Counted from the stretch's first letter, positions 1,493-22,384 are shown. The stretch: 22,384 nucleotides of DNA from a virus (IMGVR_UViG_3300027686_000037:1-22384), one strand, 5' to 3'. Numbers and translations are program-made. Notes: generated from the sequence alone by a model not told the origin.

Positions 1493-3289
1493 ATGCAAAA
1501 GATATACTTAGATTTTGAAACTTACTACGACGTACAAGTTTCCCTGACAAAAATGTCTACTGTACAATACGTCAATCACCCAGACTTTAAAGTGTGGGGC
1601 GTAGGTATAAAAGTAGACGAAGGCGATACGGAATGGTTTAACGAAGAAGAAACACCTGACATACTTGCACAAATAGATTGGGATAACTCAGCTATTGTAT
1701 GCCACAACACTTTGTTTGACGCTTACATACTAACTCAATACTTTGGCTATAGACCAGCATACTACTACGACACCGCAGCTCTTAGCCGTGGTTTGTACCC
1801 AAATATGTCAGCAAGACTTAAAGATGTAGCTGTGCGGTTGTTTCCAAATGACGCTGCTATGCGTAAGGGCGACGAGCTTGTAAACGCTAAAGGCGTACAA
1901 GATTTAGATCCAGAGCTTGACGCACAAATAGGAGGCTATTGTATTCAAGATGTAGATTTAACTTATGCATTGTTTTGGAAAATGTCGGTAGGTTACCCGC
2001 AATCAGAATTTGATCTTATTGACCTCACAGTCAGAATGTTTGTAGAACCAAAACTAATACTCGACCGTGGACGGTTGACCACATACAAAGAAGAAATATC
2101 TAAAAACACTGCTGAAGCTATACAAAATAGTGGTACTACAAGAGAAGTACTTGCTAGCCAACAAAAGTTTAAGTTGCACTTAGAAAATTTAGGCATTACT
2201 GTACCGACAAAGAAAAGTCCTACAACAGGCCAAAAAATACCAGCGTTTGGCAAAAGCGATGCTGCGTACACACAACTTTGCCAAGCATACCCTGAGTACG
2301 AACACATATGGAAAGCTAGAGAAGCAGTAAAATCGCGAGTAGAAGAAACAAGAGCAGAAAGGTTCTTAGAATCTGTTAATCCAGACGGTACATTTTCTGT
2401 GCCTTTACGGTATTACGCAGCCCACACAGGCAGGTTCGGTGGTTCTGATAAAATAAATATACAGAACTTACCTAGGGGATCTACTTTGCGTACTGCAATC
2501 ATGGCACCCGAAGGACAAAAACTATTCATATCAGATTTATCAAACATAGAAGCTAGGATGTTAGCGTGGATGGCTAAAGAACACGATTTAGTACAAGCAT
2601 TTGCTACAGGCAGAGATGTTTATTGCGAATTTGCTAGTCAAATATACGGTCGTACAATTACAAAGAAAGATAAATTAGAAAGGTACGTAGGCAAAACTGC
2701 CATCTTAGGATTAGGATACGGTATGGGTGCAGAACGATTTAAACTTACATTAAAAACAGGCTCTCCATCTGTAGACATAACAGAACATACTGCACAAGCA
2801 ATTGTTGCTCAGTACCGAGGCATGTACCCAAACATACCAAAACTCTGGTCAGGTATGAAGGACAGCTTGTTTCAAATGATTAACCCTAGAAGTGTAGGTA
2901 TGAAATACGGTCCTTTATCTATAGAATCGCGAGCTTTAAAATTACCTAATGGTATGTGCTTAAGCTATCCAAATCTTTCGTACGAACACGGTAACTTTAT
3001 ATATAAAACAGAAAGAGAAGTTATTCGTACGCATGGCCCAAGAATAACAGAAAACGTCATACAAGCATTAGCACGTATAGTTATCACAGATCAAATGTTA
3101 GACATACAAAAAATGCCTCAAGTAGATATTGTTATGCAAATACACGATGAAATAATAGCTATTGGATCAAATCAAGATGCAGAACAGACAATGGCCCAAA
3201 TAATTGATATCATGAGAACTCCCCCATCTTGGTGTAGTGATCTACCTCTTGATGCTGAAGGTGGAGCAAGCCAAGTTTATGACAAATAA
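1493..3289 (+). CDS. polA: family A DNA polymerase (PolI-like, 3'-5' exonuclease + polymerase)
   Basis: This 598-aa phage replicative polymerase lacks a 5'-3' exonuclease domain. The N-terminal DnaQ-like proofreading domain shows D7/E9 in LDFET, D76 in HNTLFDAY, and Y149/D153 in YCIQDVD. The polymerase domain has the TGR motif (312-314), motif A DLSNIEAR (348-355, metal D348), motif B from R397 through K401 to Y409-G410, and motif C HDE (551-553, metal D552). The residue matching E. coli Phe762 is Leu405, a state linked in published phage work to slower or temperate lifestyles. AAGGAGGG lies 5 nt upstream of the ATG. The 3' end overlaps the CsrA-like gene by 11 nt, suggesting translational coupling. 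Confidence 0.96.
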   Translation: MQKIYLDFETYYDVQVSLTKMSTVQYVNHPDFKVWGVGIKVDEGDTEWFNEEETPDILAQIDWDNSAIVCHNTLFDAYILTQYFGYRPAYYYDTAALSRGLYPNMSARLKDVAVRLFPNDAAMRKGDELVNAKGVQDLDPELDAQIGGYCIQDVDLTYALFWKMSVGYPQSEFDLIDLTVRMFVEPKLILDRGRLTTYKEEISKNTAEAIQNSGTTREVLASQQKFKLHLENLGITVPTKKSPTTGQKIPAFGKSDAAYTQLCQAYPEYEHIWKAREAVKSRVEETRAERFLESVNPDGTFSVPLRYYAAHTGRFGGSDKINIQNLPRGSTLRTAIMAPEGQKLFISDLSNIEARMLAWMAKEHDLVQAFATGRDVYCEFASQIYGRTITKKDKLERYVGKTAILGLGYGMGAERFKLTLKTGSPSVDITEHTAQAIVAQYRGMYPNIPKLWSGMKDSLFQMINPRSVGMKYGPLSIESRALKLPNGMCLSYPNLSYEHGNFIYKTEREVIRTHGPRITENVIQALARIVITDQMLDIQKMPQVDIVMQIHDEIIAIGSNQDAEQTMAQIIDIMRTPPSWCSDLPLDAEGGASQVYDK

Positions 3290-3473
3290 AAATTTAATAT
3301 TAACTAGAAAACAAGGAAACAAAATCATCATCCACGATGGTGATAACGTTTTATGTACTCTTACGGTCGTAGCCCTGGGATCTGGGCAATGTAAGTTAGG
3401 CTTTCAAGCTGACGCTAACATTAGAATAGATAGAGAAGAAATATATAAAACAAAACTATTAGAGGAGGAATAA
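3279..3473 (+). CDS. csrA: CsrA/RsmA-family RNA-binding translational regulator
   Basis: This 64-aa protein has the CsrA signature. It begins with LILTRKQGNKI, matching LILTRRVGETL of E. coli CsrA, and ends the core with IRIDREEIY, matching VSVHREEIY; LGFQA sits where E. coli has IGVNA. The RNA-contacting Arg of strand 5 (E. coli R44) is R52, and the strand 1 Leu and Arg are present. CsrA dimers bind GGA in mRNA leaders, usually blocking translation. The start at 3279 overlaps the polymerase end, and its TAA overlaps the primase ATG (TAATG), so it is fixed in the replication operon. Targets could be phage or host mRNAs; candidate GGA hairpins lie at 621-676. Confidence 0.88.
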   Translation: MTNKNLILTRKQGNKIIIHDGDNVLCTLTVVALGSGQCKLGFQADANIRIDREEIYKTKLLEEE

Positions 3474-10968: not shown

Positions 10969-11108
10969 TATTTTTTCTTTGCTGTTTTTTTAGCTTTTTT
11001 AAAAGATTTAGCAGTAGGTGCTCCTTTAGATCCTGGCTTACGCATCTTCTCATTAGAACCTGCTTTAATTCTTTTTCTTTTAGCGTGTATATTTGAATAT
11101 AATCCCAT
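10968..11108 (-). CDS. tiny basic protein (46 aa)
   Basis: The frame starts MGLYSNIHAKRKRIKAGS, continues with MRKPGSKGAPTAKSFKKA and ends in a Lys run. It is linked on both sides by TAATG overlaps, and AAGGAGAG lies just upstream. Small proteins with the AKRKRIKAGS and MRKPGSKGAPTA blocks recur in marine phages I recall, function unknown. Conservation of those blocks and the overlaps argue it is a true gene. Confidence 0.7.
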   Translation of the reverse strand: MGLYSNIHAKRKRIKAGSNEKMRKPGSKGAPTAKSFKKAKKTAKKK

Positions 11109-11353
11109 TATGCTCTCCTTGCGGTTTTAGTTCTTTTAAAAGACCTGTTAGATTTTTTAGCTTCCATTTTTATATTTTTACTTTTGTTGTTTAAGGGGTT
11201 GTTGTCTTTGTGCGCAACGTCTTTACCGTCTCCTACACTCGCTTGCCCCGAAGCAATCATTTTTCTTCTAGCTGCATTACGACCTGCTCTTCTTTTCTTC
11301 TGAGCAGAAGTACCCTGATATCTGTCGTACTCTTGTCTATAATTTCTAGCCAT
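11108..11353 (-). CDS. small basic protein with HNH-like remnant
   Basis: This 81-aa Arg/Lys-rich protein has DVAHKDNNPLNNKSKNI in its C-terminal half. It resembles the second half of the HNH-nuclease motif (HxD..PxNN..N), but the usual His-His pair reads Ala-His and no first-half zinc knuckle is seen. It is probably not an active nuclease. The gene starts one base after the cyclase stop region in the leftward operon and ends in TAATG with the next tiny gene. A DNA-binding or virion role is possible from charge. Confidence 0.7.
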   Translation of the reverse strand: MARNYRQEYDRYQGTSAQKKRRAGRNAARRKMIASGQASVGDGKDVAHKDNNPLNNKSKNIKMEAKKSNRSFKRTKTARRA

Positions 11354-13108
11354 TTAAATAGTATACACTTTGAGTGGTTTCTTTTTACCCTTTACATACA
11401 TTTTTTTTACAAACTTTGTGCCTTGTACCTGCGTAGCTGTAGGCTCCCCAATCAATATATCTACTCCAACTTCTTTAGTTGCGGATTCATAACGTGCAGC
11501 ACAATTAACAGCATCTCCAATAGCAGAGTAATCAAACCTAGTACTAGACCCCATATTACCGATCACCGCTGGTCCAGTATTTACACCAACCCCAATAGCA
11601 ATCTCATGCGACAACTCCTTGTTAAGCTCTTTAATAGCTTTCTGCATCTCTACTGCGCAGTCAACTGCTGCTTTTGCATGCTGATCTAGATTAAGGGGGG
11701 CGTTGAATATGGCCATGCAAGCATCACCAATAAACTTATCTACCATACCGCCGTGCGCTTGGACGCATTCAACTTGTACAGTTAGAGCTTTATTCATTAT
11801 TTCAGTTACTTCAGTAGGGGATAGGCTTTCGGATAAAGAAGTAAACCCTCTTACATCAGTAAAAAGAAAAGTACACTCTTTAAGCTCGCCTCCTAGGGTA
11901 AGCAACTCGGGGTTATCTTGCAAACGTTGTACTTGCCTGGGATCTAAGTAATGACCAAACTGTTCTTTTATTTGTTGCCTTAGCTTAAACTGCTCCCTAA
12001 AGCGTAACCAAAACTCTTGTACAGATATAAGCACTAGTGATATAACACTATAACTAACATCTATAAGTATATTGTTTGTTATTAAATAATAACCTCCTCC
12101 CAGAATACTTACAACTAGTGTGCCCGTACATACAGCGCTAGCCGTTACCTTACATGTGCGTATTATAAATATGGCTAATGTAAGTACAGTTAGTAATATA
12201 ACTAATTCATATAATAGTCTATTAGCTGGTATGTAAGGAACATCTGCAACTAATAAGCTTTCTGCAAATGATGCTTGTATCTCATGTGGATACCTAAGAC
12301 CTACTGGAGTAGAAATCTGAGGCTGCACTCCTGCAGCACTAACTCCCACAAACACAAATTTACCATTAACATCCATATCGTCGAGCGTGGTCCGTGGACT
12401 ATTAATCCAAGACACCCATCTACGGCCGACTGAATCTGTACGTATCTCTCCCAGGTTAGGTAGTTTTATGCCAACTATTTCATTGGCCTCTGTATTAATA
12501 ATATAGGTACTAGAATTAGTAATAACCTTTAATACTTCTGTTCCAAAGGTAGGTACCCATTGGTCATCAGCATTCCCCTGTAATAACAAAGGCATTCGTC
12601 TTACTAACTTATCTACATCTACTCTAGCAGTAGCTAAACCTTGGCTAACATTCTTTCTTAGCTCAGGAGTATTTTGTATAACGCCCGATACCCTAAGTCC
12701 ACGAGCCCCGTCCCCTAATATTACTGTACCTTGGGTTGGAGGGTACGCACCATTGGTATTTTCAAACATGCCTAAGACACTCGGGGAAGTGCTTAGCGCA
12801 GTGTTGAAAAGGGCATCCCCTCCAAATCGATCAGGCTGAGGAAAGGTTATAACCCACCCAACTCCTATAGCGCCGTTGTACATTAACTTATCGTGTATAC
12901 CTGCTAAAACAGTTCTAGGAAAAGGCCATCCTCCCATCTCTTCTAAGTCTTTTTCTGTAATATCTAAACGTACAAAGTGCCCACTGGGGTCTGGAGTATG
13001 TACGAGAGAATCAAATATCTTTAATCTAAGTACTTCTAACGCTGTAAAGTTAAACAGCAAAGGTATGGTAAGTGCTAAGACTGCAATAGGACCTAATAGT
13101 TTTTTCAT
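11354..13108 (-). CDS. membrane adenylate cyclase: CHASE2 sensor + 3 TM + class III cyclase
   Basis: This 584-aa predicted inner-membrane enzyme makes cAMP from ATP. An N-terminal membrane segment (about 4-24) precedes a periplasmic CHASE2 domain (about 25-290), then three membrane segments (about 298-366) and a cytoplasmic class III catalytic domain (about 405-584). Metal aspartates are D418 (FTDVRGFT) and D462 (KFIGD). The adenine-selecting Lys is K458, with Ser528 at the partner position. The transition-state residues N535 and R539 lie in AVNCAAR. All expected catalytic residues are present, so it should be active. CAGGGGGGATAATG gives a strong ribosome site overlapping the FecR gene end. 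FecR-CHASE2-cyclase pairs are known in bacteria; here the pair ends a phage curli cassette. Guanylate cyclase is less likely given Lys458. Confidence 0.93.
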   Translation of the reverse strand: MKKLLGPIAVLALTIPLLFNFTALEVLRLKIFDSLVHTPDPSGHFVRLDITEKDLEEMGGWPFPRTVLAGIHDKLMYNGAIGVGWVITFPQPDRFGGDALFNTALSTSPSVLGMFENTNGAYPPTQGTVILGDGARGLRVSGVIQNTPELRKNVSQGLATARVDVDKLVRRMPLLLQGNADDQWVPTFGTEVLKVITNSSTYIINTEANEIVGIKLPNLGEIRTDSVGRRWVSWINSPRTTLDDMDVNGKFVFVGVSAAGVQPQISTPVGLRYPHEIQASFAESLLVADVPYIPANRLLYELVILLTVLTLAIFIIRTCKVTASAVCTGTLVVSILGGGYYLITNNILIDVSYSVISLVLISVQEFWLRFREQFKLRQQIKEQFGHYLDPRQVQRLQDNPELLTLGGELKECTFLFTDVRGFTSLSESLSPTEVTEIMNKALTVQVECVQAHGGMVDKFIGDACMAIFNAPLNLDQHAKAAVDCAVEMQKAIKELNKELSHEIAIGVGVNTGPAVIGNMGSSTRFDYSAIGDAVNCAARYESATKEVGVDILIGEPTATQVQGTKFVKKMYVKGKKKPLKVYTI

Positions 13109-14223
13109 TATCCCCCCTGAGTAATAGTAATAGTTGATTCGCCACCACCATTTACTTTAATTACATTAGACACACCATCTTGAATAAAGATAACCGTATA
13201 AGAGTTACTACTGTTTAGATCCACTTGTACGGACTCATTCACTTGTCTTCGTAAGCTAATAACTTGCCCTGTAATAAGTGTAGTTATTTGAGTATCGGGA
13301 TCTTTGCCTAGTAGAGTACCTGATACCTGTGCACTTATGCCCTGGCTAAGCTTATCATCCTCTTGTACTAAAGCTAAAGCATCTAATACATTAAGCAAGT
13401 CTTCGAGGAAGTTAACATCTAAGTAGTTTATATCTAGTTCTGTAAATTCTAGCTGGTCATCTTTTAAATAATCTTCCGCAAGGTAGTCTATATCCAAATC
13501 ATTAAAGTCTAGTATGTTAGCGGTTTTAACCACTGCTTGTTCTTCTATAACAACTTCTTGTTTGGCAGGAGTAACAATCAACATGTTATCAATCATGTCT
13601 AGTGTAAGGTCTAATATGACAGGCTTGCTTGGGCTAGATTCATAAACAGACACAGTTGTGGCTTCATAAGGTTTGTTAAGTAATACACTACCCATAGCTG
13701 TAACAACTTCTATCTCACCACTAGATAAACCGTTGGGGCCAGGCAAAAGTATTATTAATGATCTGCCTAGCTCATCAACTGTAGTAGTAAAATCTGTACC
13801 CCTAATAGAAATATCAGCCGTAGGAGTAGACAATTTAATATTGTTTTTGTTTATTTTATTTAGGTTACCACTTATAAACCTAGCGGTACCAAGACCAAAA
13901 GTAATTGCCATCTTAGCTTTACTAGGGTCGGGGTCGTAAATGTATTCGGTAATAGTAAGTTTAGAGTGTTCTGTAAGTTTAACTCTAGAGTCATCAAGAA
14001 ACGTAATTGCCATTCTACCATCTGTAGTAATAGCTTCATCGTTGCTTTGTATAGCAAAGTCTAATGTAGCATCTAGGGGTTTGTTTCTTACAATTTGTGC
14101 CGAACCATTTAGTTCAGATATACCGCCAATATCAGCAGCCGACTGCTGTTCCTTGGTCGTTTTGGATAACACAAACTGTGGAAGAAGCATTACCGCCAAT
14201 AGACAGAATCTTAAGCCAGTCAT
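13108..14223 (-). CDS. secreted FecR-domain protein with acidic Leu/Asp repeat
   Basis: This 371-aa protein has an N-terminal signal peptide (LRFCLLAVMLLPQFVLS, 4-20). A FecR domain follows at about 40-160, with MAITFLDDSRVKLTEHS and the family hallmark LSTPTADISIRGTDF (131-145). Residues 238-283 form an acidic repeat of LD..DYL and LDINYLDVNFL type; the rest is beta-rich. It is predicted periplasmic. In bacteria such FecR proteins are often next to CHASE2 cyclases and may present a signal to them. Its start lies inside the curlin-like gene, a 92-nt overlap in another frame. No good ribosome site is seen, so coupled re-initiation is possible. A later Met at 14190 would shorten the signal peptide. 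Confidence 0.87.
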   Translation of the reverse strand: MTGLRFCLLAVMLLPQFVLSKTTKEQQSAADIGGISELNGSAQIVRNKPLDATLDFAIQSNDEAITTDGRMAITFLDDSRVKLTEHSKLTITEYIYDPDPSKAKMAITFGLGTARFISGNLNKINKNNIKLSTPTADISIRGTDFTTTVDELGRSLIILLPGPNGLSSGEIEVVTAMGSVLLNKPYEATTVSVYESSPSKPVILDLTLDMIDNMLIVTPAKQEVVIEEQAVVKTANILDFNDLDIDYLAEDYLKDDQLEFTELDINYLDVNFLEDLLNVLDALALVQEDDKLSQGISAQVSGTLLGKDPDTQITTLITGQVISLRRQVNESVQVDLNSSNSYTVIFIQDGVSNVIKVNGGGESTITITQGG

Positions 14224-14857
14224 TGTCTTGGGTACTCAGTTGTTGGATATTAAAGGTTCTTTGACCACCCGTGTGATCTAGATAAAAATAACCACCAGCA
14301 GAGGCCGTTACGCCTGTACCTGTATAGTTAACTGTATTGTCACTACCGTCTATATCCATAAAGTTAGTAGCTCCATCAATGTTAATGTTTGAAGTAATAG
14401 TATTGTTAGAACCTTGAATGATCCAGTCTAAGTCTAGTGTAGCAGCCAATGCAGACGTAGCTTGGTTTAACGTGAACGTATTCCCAGCACCTGTAACAGC
14501 TACATTTTGATTAGAGCTATCAGCTCCATAAGTGTTGGTTGGATCTACCTGGATTGTAAAGCTGTTTGTTGAGCCCGTAAAGTTGTAGATACCTGTAAAG
14601 CTATCTGCCCAGATGTCACCGAGGAATTTATTAGTAGCACCAATCATATTGATGTCTAAGGTTAACCCTGTACCGTCTAAATCGAAAGCCGTAAGGCTTC
14701 CTGCGCTAGATGATAATCCACCAATAATGTTGGAAATACCGAGTTGCTCGAGGTCTATGTTAGCTCCAGTACCGGACTGGGTCACATAGATTTCGTTATC
14801 TGCTCCTGTAACTCCTATACAAAAAACAGCAAGTAGACTAATTAGCTTGTTCTTCAT
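14132..14857 (-). CDS. secreted curlin-like protein (candidate amyloid fibre subunit)
   Basis: This 241-aa protein has a signal peptide (about 1-19). The first mature segment, VTQSGTGANIDLEQLGISN, fits the curlin repeat (Q.G..N....Q.G..N). Downstream repeats are looser: GATNKFLGD, GSTNSFTIQ, GAGNTFTLNQ, GSNNTITSN and GATNFMDIDGSDNTV, as expected of a beta-solenoid rich in Asn, Gly and Thr. Two Cys (229 and the last residue, 241) could form a disulfide, unlike classical CsgA. It lies 4 nt behind the csgG-like gene, with AGGAG in the csgG end as ribosome site. It is the likely export substrate of the pore. Only one subunit gene is present, not a CsgA/CsgB pair. Confidence 0.78.
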   Translation of the reverse strand: MKNKLISLLAVFCIGVTGADNEIYVTQSGTGANIDLEQLGISNIIGGLSSSAGSLTAFDLDGTGLTLDINMIGATNKFLGDIWADSFTGIYNFTGSTNSFTIQVDPTNTYGADSSNQNVAVTGAGNTFTLNQATSALAATLDLDWIIQGSNNTITSNINIDGATNFMDIDGSDNTVNYTGTGVTASAGGYFYLDHTGGQRTFNIQQLSTQDNDWLKILSIGGNASSTVCVIQNDQGTAVGC

Positions 14858-14861
14858 ACAA

Positions 14862-15698
14862 TTATTCTACTCCTACTAAAGGATTTTGTCTAATCCAGTA
14901 CCCTCTTTCATAGCCTAGGTTGACTATCTCTAGTACCCCGCCTTCTATTGCTTTCATCAAAGCTATAGTTGAAGATTCATTAGAAGCATTGCCTAACTCT
15001 ATCTCTACTAAATCAGTATTAGATTCTATAAACCTAAACACGTCTTCTGACTTTCCGTAAGAGAATATAGTCTTCTGGGATAAGACTTCTAGTAACACTT
15101 CCCCGGTAGCAACAGACACCATACGCAAACTTACAGTTACATTGTCTTCTCTATAGAACAAACTTACCCCAATTCCAAGATACCTAGCGCCTGCACCCCC
15201 CGATTTTAAATTTGATTCATACGATATTACTGCCCCTTCTATTAATACACCTGCAAATAACAAAGGAGCTAATTGCTTTTTCTTTTCTTCTTCTGTGGCA
15301 AATTTTTCTCTTGCAGATCTTATTAACTGACGCTCTTTAACTAAGTTATCTAAGCCAACCCTTTCTACTACCCTAAAAAAGTTACCATTGCCGGCATGTT
15401 TTAGTGCTCTTATTAGTAGTGCATTGGGTTGTTGTGTTATGGCTGTAGAGAATAAGGCAAACTCTGAATTACTTTTACGTTGGCCTGTTTGATCGGTTAA
15501 GGATGTAGGGTATATAGCTACAACCGGTTGTACTTTAGGCAGGTCTACATTTTTTAACTCAACTGATTGTAGATCTTGTATAGATACTACGTCGTTTAGA
15601 TTTAATCTTTGTTCGTATGTGTCTTCTAACTGATAGAAAATAGAACAACTAGAAAGTAAAAGTACCGATAGGTATCGTAATCGAAGTAACTGTGCCAT
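14862..15698 (-). CDS. csgG: CsgG-family curli secretion pore lipoprotein
   Basis: This 278-aa outer-membrane lipoprotein has lipobox LLSSC (Cys18). The body matches CsgG clearly: GLDNLVKERQLIRSA, LIEGAVISYESNLKSGGAGA (about 152-171), then RYLGIG, and VSVATGEVLLEVLSQKTI. E. coli CsgG forms a nonameric channel exporting curli subunits. At the constriction, E. coli Tyr51/Asn55/Phe56 align here to Ser78/Leu82/Phe83, so the narrow ring is altered while Phe is kept. Length equals the family norm. The start overlaps the csgF-like gene by 50 nt in another frame, but it gives a proper lipoprotein signal. Gene order csgF-csgG-curlin suggests a working secretion set. Confidence 0.94.
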   Translation of the reverse strand: MAQLLRLRYLSVLLLSSCSIFYQLEDTYEQRLNLNDVVSIQDLQSVELKNVDLPKVQPVVAIYPTSLTDQTGQRKSNSEFALFSTAITQQPNALLIRALKHAGNGNFFRVVERVGLDNLVKERQLIRSAREKFATEEEKKKQLAPLLFAGVLIEGAVISYESNLKSGGAGARYLGIGVSLFYREDNVTVSLRMVSVATGEVLLEVLSQKTIFSYGKSEDVFRFIESNTDLVEIELGNASNESSTIALMKAIEGGVLEIVNLGYERGYWIRQNPLVGVE

Positions 15699-16188
15699 CT
15701 GCTTCCGTTATTGTTAAAGTTAATGTAATACCATCACTTGAATATACTATGGTATTTCCTTCTAGGGTTATTGTACCCGACTCACTAGGAATTTCACCAA
15801 ATAGGTTGTTTACTAGCTGTCTTGATAGCTCTGCATACACTCTAGATTCTAGGTTTCTTAAAAATCTGGCGAGTGTGCTGTTTTCTTTTTCTCTTTCTAT
15901 TTCGTCTTGTAAGGCTTTAATCTCTTCTTTTATAGTTAGTTTTCTTGAGAACTCTTGGTTTTCTATAGTGAGATAGTGTGAGCTAGTTCCTACGCCATTA
16001 AAGCTAGGAGATTTAAATTTGTGTACTATTTGATCTGCTAAAAGTGTTTGGCAAGATATACCTATTAATAATAATACCCCTACTATAGCTACAAACTGGA
16101 TTACGGAGTCCGCATCTTGCATTCTTTTTCTTCTACGTATTTCTTCTTTTGTAGGTCTGCCTCTTTTTCTAATCTTTTCGTTGGTCAT
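15649..16188 (-). CDS. csgF: CsgF-like pore-associated protein with long basic N-terminus
   Basis: This 179-aa protein has a mature part resembling CsgF. QIVHKFKSPSFNGVG (53-67) matches the CsgF N-terminus that plugs into CsgG, with F58, P61, F63 and G65 conserved. The C-terminal LSRQLVNNLF and GTITLEGNTIVYSSDGITLT follow the CsgF helix and beta part. Unlike E. coli CsgF, it has a 28-residue basic leader with AT-hook-like RKRGRPTK (7-14) before a hydrophobic segment (29-45). It also has an inserted charged coiled coil (80-125). Cleavage could follow Ala51. A shorter start at Met23 would remove the basic leader but has only a weak ribosome site. It overlaps the holin-like gene by 20 nt. Confidence 0.8.
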   Translation of the reverse strand: MTNEKIRKRGRPTKEEIRRRKRMQDADSVIQFVAIVGVLLLIGISCQTLLADQIVHKFKSPSFNGVGTSSHYLTIENQEFSRKLTIKEEIKALQDEIEREKENSTLARFLRNLESRVYAELSRQLVNNLFGEIPSESGTITLEGNTIVYSSDGITLTLTITEADGTVTSITIPIGTFTF

Positions 16189-16519
16189 CGCGGTCCGCCT
16201 TTGCTATTCTATCTGTATTCATAAGTTGTGGTACTCCAAGTATAGTCTTCAAAAGTGTGTCTTGTCTAATTATCTCATTGTCTACAGACCTAACCCTGTC
16301 TATTAGGGCTATTAAAATACCATGCTGTGAATCTAATTTCTGACCTAATCTCTCTTCTATTTGAGCTATTTGTGCGCTTACTTTTTCGTCAAGCACATCT
16401 ACCTTAGTTTCCATTCCATCTATGATTTTGTTTATAAGTTTCCAAATAAACAAACCTAAGCCTATAGCTGCTGCTATTGGAAAACCAACTTCGTTTATTA
16501 GTTGTACTACTGAATCCAT
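16169..16519 (-). CDS. holin-like single-membrane-segment protein with coiled coil
   Basis: This 116-aa protein has one membrane segment (about 12-32, VGFPIAAAIGLGLFIWKLI) followed by a long charged coiled coil (about 36-95). The pattern resembles small phage proteins often labelled holin or BhlA-like, and an AAGGA site lies just before the ATG. A holin would let the cytoplasmic lysozyme (21802-22254, which has no signal) reach the cell wall. Its place directly before csgF-csgG also allows a role as inner-membrane partner of the secretion set. The family is not certain from sequence. Confidence 0.6.
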   Translation of the reverse strand: MDSVVQLINEVGFPIAAAIGLGLFIWKLINKIIDGMETKVDVLDEKVSAQIAQIEERLGQKLDSQHGILIALIDRVRSVDNEIIRQDTLLKTILGVPQLMNTDRIAKADRDDQRKD

Positions 16520-21801: not shown

Positions 21802-22254
21802 TTATACAGTATTACGAACTACTGCTTGCAGTTCTAGACTCCTTCTTCCTACCTGTTTAAACCATCTGCTGTCTTCCATTTCAGCAGCCATTTTTTCCCA
21901 ATCGTGTTCTCTACAGGCTTTCATCATGTTTTTAAAATTGGAAAGCCTTGTTCCCCCTAGATTAAAACACATATTTACTAGGACGTGTTGGATATCTTCG
22001 GGGAGGTTATAAAAGCCTTCGTCTGTGCCAAACACATGTATAGCTTCTGCTAAGTGTTTTTTAAAATCGTCTTCGTAGTACATGTCTACTACTTCTTGCG
22101 ATACTTTAGTTCCTATTGGGTCATTATATTCAGGATCCCCAGGTTGGCATAAATGCCCAACTCCAAGTGTTTTATACCCTAAACTATCTTCGTACAACTC
22201 AAGAACTTCACCCTCGTGACGTTTTATATCGGCTTTACATTTTTCAATGTCCAT
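21802..22254 (-). CDS. T4-type lysozyme (glycoside hydrolase 24), endolysin
   Basis: This 150-aa enzyme cleaves the peptidoglycan sugar backbone. The T4 lysozyme triad Glu11/Asp20/Thr26 is E14 (RHEGE), D23 (LYEDSLGY) and T29 (YKTLGVGH), all at the correct spacing. The C-terminal part keeps NMCFNLG and SRWFKQVGRR like T4 lysozyme. I place the start at MDIEKCKAD: a longer reading would overlap the upstream gene, whose stop lies one base before this ATG. There is no signal or SAR sequence, so release should need a holin. It is the first complete gene of the leftward operon seen here. Confidence 0.95.
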   Translation of the reverse strand: MDIEKCKADIKRHEGEVLELYEDSLGYKTLGVGHLCQPGDPEYNDPIGTKVSQEVVDMYYEDDFKKHLAEAIHVFGTDEGFYNLPEDIQHVLVNMCFNLGGTRLSNFKNMMKACREHDWEKMAAEMEDSRWFKQVGRRSLELQAVVRNTV

Positions 22255-22255
22255 A

Positions 22256-22384
22256 CTATTTAGCTTCTTCGACCTGTTCTTGCTCGACTTGCACTTGAGG
22301 TTTAATTTTATCTTCTTCAATAATTGTTTTAAGTTCTGCACTAACGCCTGCTTGACCAGCTTGCAGAATTTTTACTTCTACTAC
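22256..22384 (-). CDS. C-terminal end of an unrecognised protein (partial)
   Basis: An open frame enters from the right edge on the minus strand and ends with TAG at 22258-22256. The 42 visible residues begin VVEVKILQAGQAGVSAELKT and end in an acidic, Gln-rich tail (QVEQEQVEEAK). It stops one base before the lysozyme ATG, so the two genes are in one operon. The acidic tail gives no family. It may be a virion or lysis-related protein. Confidence 0.6.
   Translation of the reverse strand, partial: VVEVKILQAGQAGVSAELKTIIEEDKIKPQVQVEQEQVEEAK

Follow-up and report, generated by a model that had tools for sequence, protein, structure and literature searches.

A curli-type secretion cassette joined to FecR-domain and CHASE2 adenylate cyclase genes in a marine phage with a KPP25-like backbone

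Overall organization of the cassette

The window, a 22,384-base IMG/VR virus record (IMGVR_UViG_3300027686_000037), contained a curli cassette on the minus strand at 11354–16188. The right half of the window was composed of leftward late genes, namely a lysozyme (21802–22341, not adjoining the cassette), an internal virion protein, and a tail fibre, followed by the cassette. The left half carried mostly rightward replication genes for DNA polymerase A, a primase/helicase-like protein, a PD-(D/E)XK nuclease, and a helicase. The five contiguous leftward genes named in the first-pass annotation, CsgF, CsgG, curlin-like, FecR, and CHASE2-cyclase, were all present as open reading frames (ORFs), and Pfam matches above the cut-off were obtained for four of the five. 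However, the set was larger than described, since a sixth member, TMcc, had been missed. The features were as follows.

11108..11353, minus strand: small, basic ORF of HNH-like type that immediately follows the cyclase gene in this lineage of phages; it is given no part in the mechanism proposed below
11354..13108, minus strand: CHASE2 adenylate cyclase (Pfam CHASE2 101 bits, Guanylate_cyc 83 bits)
13108..14223, minus strand: FecR-domain envelope protein (Pfam FecR 36 bits), with a signal peptide, a FecR domain (residues ~31–205), a linker, and a curlin-like tail (residues ~330–371)
14132..14857, minus strand: curlin-like repeat protein, a candidate for the exported subunit of a fibre (GxxN excess, Curlin_rpt matches in the family, solenoid model)
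14862..15698, minus strand: CsgG, outer-membrane curli pore lipoprotein (Pfam CsgG 156 bits, cut-off 20.8)
15649..16188, minus strand: CsgF, extracellular curli assembly factor (Pfam CsgF 51.7 bits, cut-off 25.8)
16169..16519, minus strand: TMcc, 116 residues with one transmembrane (TM) segment and a coiled coil, overlapping CsgF, a near-constant cassette member

The overlaps and very short gaps between the genes were confirmed from the ORF coordinates. CsgF and CsgG overlapped by 50 nt, CsgG and the curlin-like gene were separated by 4 nt, and FecR and the cyclase shared 1 nt. The end of the curlin-like gene overlapped the FecR signal peptide, out of frame, by 92 nt (14132–14223), which suggests translational coupling. 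An overlap of similar kind was found in many podophage loci.

When phage collections were searched for the five genes in this order, as had been advised, the order was recovered in many phage contigs, and the arrangement TMcc–CsgF–CsgG–curlin–FecR–(second curlin)–cyclase was nearly invariant. Among viral-type loci with room on the contig, curlin and FecR followed CsgG in 213 of 213, CsgF preceded CsgG in 211 of 211, TMcc preceded CsgF in 201 of 211, and the cyclase was in place in 138 of 140. These counts are not independent, because near-duplicates were included and the loci had been collected by similarity to CsgG or FecR, but they do indicate that the other cassette members are not optional. 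CsgE, CsgC, and CsgD were missing, as earlier stated, with no such match among the window proteins scanned, and these proteins are not universal outside Gammaproteobacteria (PMC9599517). The second curli subunit reported as missing was indeed absent from the window; in the cassettes of many myophages, a gene for such a subunit sits between those for FecR and the cyclase.

The possibility of a chimera of bacterial and phage DNA, raised as a way in which the call might fail, was ruled out as an assembly artefact by the recurrence of the junctions in independent contigs. In L019, for example, the succession of genes was as in the window, starting with lysozyme and virion genes, continuing with the cassette, and passing into the replication genes; in L069 it was seen from the virion genes onward. 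The virion genes of the window lay upstream of the cassette in L005, L019, L059, and L069, and its HNH-like and VRR-type genes, together with the replication genes, lay downstream in L019, L064, L066, L069, and L070. The identities were mostly well below 100%. The HNH-like ORF, for which no Pfam match was obtained, also followed the cyclase in L057, among others. A scan of the window for promoters and terminators gave counts no better than chance, and no tRNA genes, sought as a host clue, were found. The replication cluster contained a CsrA-like ORF (3237–3473, plus strand; Pfam CsrA 44.7 bits, above the cut-off). Bacterial CsrA regulates genes for curli and biofilm formation.

Comparison with published cassettes

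The union of five genes had been taken as new, but this ordered set, with FecR and the cyclase, has been in the literature since 2022 (PMC9599517) and also occurs in two cultured phages, HTVC008M and Melnitz. The published pelagiphage cassette contains CsgF, CsgG, CsgA/B, FecR, frequently a second CsgA/B, and adenylate cyclase, with one or two 'histidine kinases' ahead of csgF. It was described in the genomes of nine HTVC023P-type podophages as well as in pelagimyophages; it is widespread among phages of the ocean, and its expression in ocean metatranscriptomes has been reported (PMC9599517). Partial forms of the cassette were treated in PMC7029224 and PMC9004378, where sibling capture, uptake, and lysis timing were proposed.

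The window matched the published cassette in genes, order, the presence of FecR with adenylate cyclase, and the small gene or genes before csgF. However, the window had no second curlin, and its phage had a KPP25-like backbone unlike that of the HTVC023P-type carriers. HTVC008M (KC465899) and Melnitz (MZ577098) shared with the window the order of CsgF, CsgG, curlin, FecR, and cyclase, whereas their genomes are T4-like, with two copies of TMcc, an additional curlin gene that separates FecR from the cyclase, and roughly 26–50% protein identity to the window. Added here to the published picture are the KPP25-like backbone, the near-invariant order, the lack of a kinase domain and the weak holin match in TMcc, the signal peptide and curlin-like tail of FecR, and the surveys of bacterial curli loci, FecR–CHASE2 pairs, and cNMP-binding domains described below.

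CsgG and CsgF

The CsgG call was upheld by alignment of ~220 residues with the solved E. coli CsgG (E 2e-46). The window CsgG could also be aligned with 8 phage relatives, and a lipobox, LLSSC, was located by reading. CsgF had an extended basic N-terminus ahead of its TM/signal segment, and no significant match was found when it was compared with the PDB by sequence. The start following the signal segment, F-x-P-x-F-x-G, was common to the window CsgF and other phage CsgF proteins in the alignment. Separately, a csgG match of 42.5% identity was observed in OR851715 (298–954), a 1.5-kb record without annotation, labelled Salmonella phage, that may be host DNA.

Curlin-like protein

The curlin-like protein of the window gave no Pfam Curlin_rpt match of its own, and such matches were obtained for 5 of the 13 members of its alignment. 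It contained 8 GxxN motifs where shuffled sequences gave 2.9 (P 0.003). Residues Gln27, Gly29, Gln38, Gly40, and Asn43, which form an N-terminal Q/G/N ladder, were invariant in 45 curlin-like sequences. The monomer was predicted to be a β-solenoid (pLDDT 83). In a fold search of the PDB no significant match to this model was found, and the CsgA fibril appeared at E 2.1.

The weak curlin signature and the confident model of a monomeric solenoid would also fit a soluble surface or released protein that never forms amyloid and acts, for example, in receptor masking. The cultures infected with Melnitz, in which no clumping was seen (PMC9004378), are in keeping with such a non-fibrous effector. However, the conserved Q/G/N ladder, the retention of CsgF, and the second curlins of myophages, which match CsgA/CsgB models, all point to a fibre, and a non-fibrous effector was considered quite unlikely. 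Varied non-curlin stretches preceded the repeats at the N-termini of the myophage second curlins (L002 10447–11772, L149, L156, L158, and L165), and these are possibly different surface-exposed heads.

FecR-domain protein

The FecR-domain protein began with a hydrophobic signal segment (residues 1–19), after which the FecR domain followed. The fold of this domain matched PDB 4m0h and 6ovk, in agreement with the earlier FecR call, in a model of modest confidence (pLDDT 66). A profile search of the PDB gave no significant match, and PF04773 was the only FecR-type model found in the protein. The linker (residues 238–277) was acidic and highly conserved, had a leucine at every fifth position, and was predicted to be disordered over most of its length. 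In the C-terminal stretch, Tyr342, Gln348, and Ile367 were kept in 228 of 228 sequences and Gln369 in 227 of 228. The earlier reading of the gene had missed this curlin-like tail. In profile comparison, the tail matched the C-termini of the second curlins with an E value of 1e-4 and a score of 28.6; the best of 100 column-shuffled controls scored 16.2, so that none was as good. The match of the tail to the first curlin was weak (E 0.02–0.04).

The layout of an anti-sigma regulator, with a cytoplasmic N-terminal part before a single TM segment, was absent from the window FecR, which had the signal segment there instead. Because of the signal peptide and the curlin-like repeat end, the reading of FecR as an iron regulator is poorly supported and unlikely, and the 'iron-dependent' label of PMC9599517 does not appear to be supported here. 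A further reading, offered in PMC9599517, is an uptake channel, in which an ungated CsgG would import nutrients or iron compounds for the infected cell and FecR would be an iron-citrate regulator. Although a FecR domain is present and no CsgE gate was found among the window proteins scanned, such a channel would leave the curlin and CsgF with no obvious role, and it is at odds with the signal segment, the curlin-like tail, and the pairing with a cyclase. Uptake was judged very improbable.

In 289 sampled alphaproteobacterial genomes, the closest FecR matches were N-terminal domains of mostly large proteins. Of seven scanned proteins with an N-terminally placed FecR domain, five contained RTX or cadherin-type repeats above the cut-off. 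The large proteins of this kind were encoded in L346, L349, L350, L351, L355, and L356, most with RTX/cadherin-type repeats, and a class III cyclase was encoded nearby in L350 and L353. Among the matches listed, the full-length FecR type was found in one metagenome-assembled genome (MAG) only (G001), on contigs C32 (L142) and C42. Both are cassette contigs, and C42, apparently L084, had lysozyme and virion matches. In the other matches listed, coverage was confined to the FecR domain and stopped near position 234, so that neither the linker nor the curlin-like tail of the window protein was included.

CHASE2 adenylate cyclase

The cyclase was composed of an N-terminal TM segment, an extracytoplasmic CHASE2 domain, further TM segments, and a class III catalytic domain. 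The metal-binding residues Asp418 and Asp462 and the base-recognition residue Lys458 were kept in 177 of 177 sequences, Arg539 in 176, Asn535 in 174, and the base-recognition residue Asp526 in 167. Judged from these residues, the active site is predicted to be intact and of the ATP type, and the protein should make cyclic AMP.

FecR matches lay within about 5 kb of CHASE2 matches in at least 29 of the 289 alphaproteobacterial genomes, a lower bound that was counted by hand from the rows listed. This closeness, shared with the window, supports a functional FecR–CHASE2 pair, and from the gene pairing we infer that the two proteins may be in contact. Bacterial curli (type VIII) operons share CsgG, CsgF, and a curlin-type substrate with the window. 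In contrast, no FecR or CHASE2-cyclase match was found near 10 alpha- and gammaproteobacterial csgF loci, a small sample covered up to about 10 kb on each side.

Receivers of cyclic AMP were sought as cNMP-binding domains. A match was found in 5 of 61 genomes of the genus of a Pelagibacter MAG, in every case in an 870-residue frame unlike CRP, and no class III cyclase was found in those 61 genomes; this survey bears on SAR11 phages in general. A search of 7 virus records that carry the cassette, fragments among them, gave no cNMP-binding domain.

TMcc, the sixth gene

The TM segment of TMcc was predicted at about residues 11–29. All 13 members of its alignment matched PHROG 18771 (unknown), and 5 of the 13 weakly matched the holin PHROG 4898, the window protein being the best (E 1.4e-5). 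The gene in this place encodes about 70–116 residues as aligned, and its homologues are usually duplicated before csgF in myophages, e.g. HTVC008M and Melnitz. By position and size, TMcc is apparently the gene labelled 'histidine kinase' in PMC9599517, where it is described as short. Neither HisKA nor HATPase was found in the 13 members at E 0.1, and the kinase label thus seems unsupported for the gene in this place.

If TMcc were a holin, CsgG and CsgF a repurposed envelope-breaching pore, and the cyclase a timer, the cassette would be a lysis-timing module, which extends the pinholin/secretin idea of PMC9004378. TMcc shows the holin match in 5 of 13 members and lies directly upstream of csgF, a lysozyme is nearby in several loci, and a lysis role was argued in the Melnitz paper (PMC9004378). 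However, the curlin and FecR are not needed for lysis and were as constant as the pore, the CsgG pore is too small for virions (PMC7029224), the holin match was weak, and the window lysozyme did not adjoin the cassette. Lysis timing was considered unlikely.

Proposed function

The favoured reading is a phage-borne type VIII (curli) system for fibre export, combined with an envelope-sensing pair of FecR and the CHASE2 cyclase, and its chance of being correct was put at about even. During infection, CsgG would form an outer-membrane pore that is capped by CsgF, and the curlin-like protein would be exported as a surface fibre. FecR would remain periplasmic and serve as an anchor or plug, contacting either the subunit or the pore through its curlin-like tail. 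The state of this engagement would be relayed by FecR to CHASE2 at the inner membrane, setting the production of cyclic AMP. TMcc would be a partner in the inner membrane and may resemble a holin. The phage would most likely benefit from an altered surface of the infected cell, leading to aggregation or to the exclusion of other phages.

Fibre export with sensing is favoured by the domains above cut-off, the gene order, the FecR tail, the FecR–CHASE2 pairs, the catalytic residues, and the expression in metatranscriptomes (PMC9599517). On the other side stand the lack of clumping with Melnitz (PMC9004378) and a curlin without a Curlin_rpt or PDB match. The scarcity of cNMP-binding receivers in Pelagibacter, their absence from the 7 phage records, and the modest FecR model also count against this reading.

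A more specific model of FecR as a curlin-tailed anchor is rather less probable and is put forward tentatively. The FecR domain would sit in the periplasm at the CsgG pore, the conserved acidic linker would thread or engage the channel, and the repeat would nucleate or cap the fibre; CHASE2 would sense fibre assembly directly and convert it into cyclic AMP. If true, this would be a phage-made sensor of secretion state with the same layout as the FecR-headed bacterial adhesins. With the two labels corrected, no histidine kinase having been found and a role of FecR in iron regulation being improbable, and with the FecR tail recognised, attention shifts to anchoring and secretion sensing and away from iron.

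Phage lineage and probable transfer of the cassette

By protein comparisons the carrier is a KPP25-like podovirus, a third, unrelated backbone for the cassette. In L019 (58.3 kb), to which the window phage is closely related, the major head protein was 51% identical to that of Pseudomonas phage KPP25, and the window polymerase was 35% identical to the KPP25 polymerase. Compared with the terminase of MW574966, an HTVC023P-type phage, the L019 terminase showed 33% identity and those of several other cassette carriers 54–61%. HTVC023P-type carriers had 47–62% identity in their terminase, head–tail, and capsid proteins.

In the FecR tree, the KPP25-like and HTVC023P-type podophage groups were close together and far from the myophage FecR. 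The podophage FecR proteins were about 75–80% identical to the window FecR despite the 33% terminase identity, which argues that the cassette moves and is selected as one unit. Transfer as a unit between distant podophages, in either direction, would fit the tree and these identities.

A bacterial source of the complete cassette was rejected, because the 'bacterial' matches that carried it appear to be phage contigs placed in MAGs, and no FecR or cyclase match lay near the 10 csgF loci, a small sample. The scan of bacterial genome contigs gave only 8 loci, as its patterns were biased to phage CsgG. The cassettes under MAG names (L084–L090 and L142; Maricaulis, Neomarinimicrobiota, Flavobacteriaceae, Rhodobacteraceae, and Pelagibacter) look like mis-binned phage, and some of these contigs carry lysozyme or virion genes.
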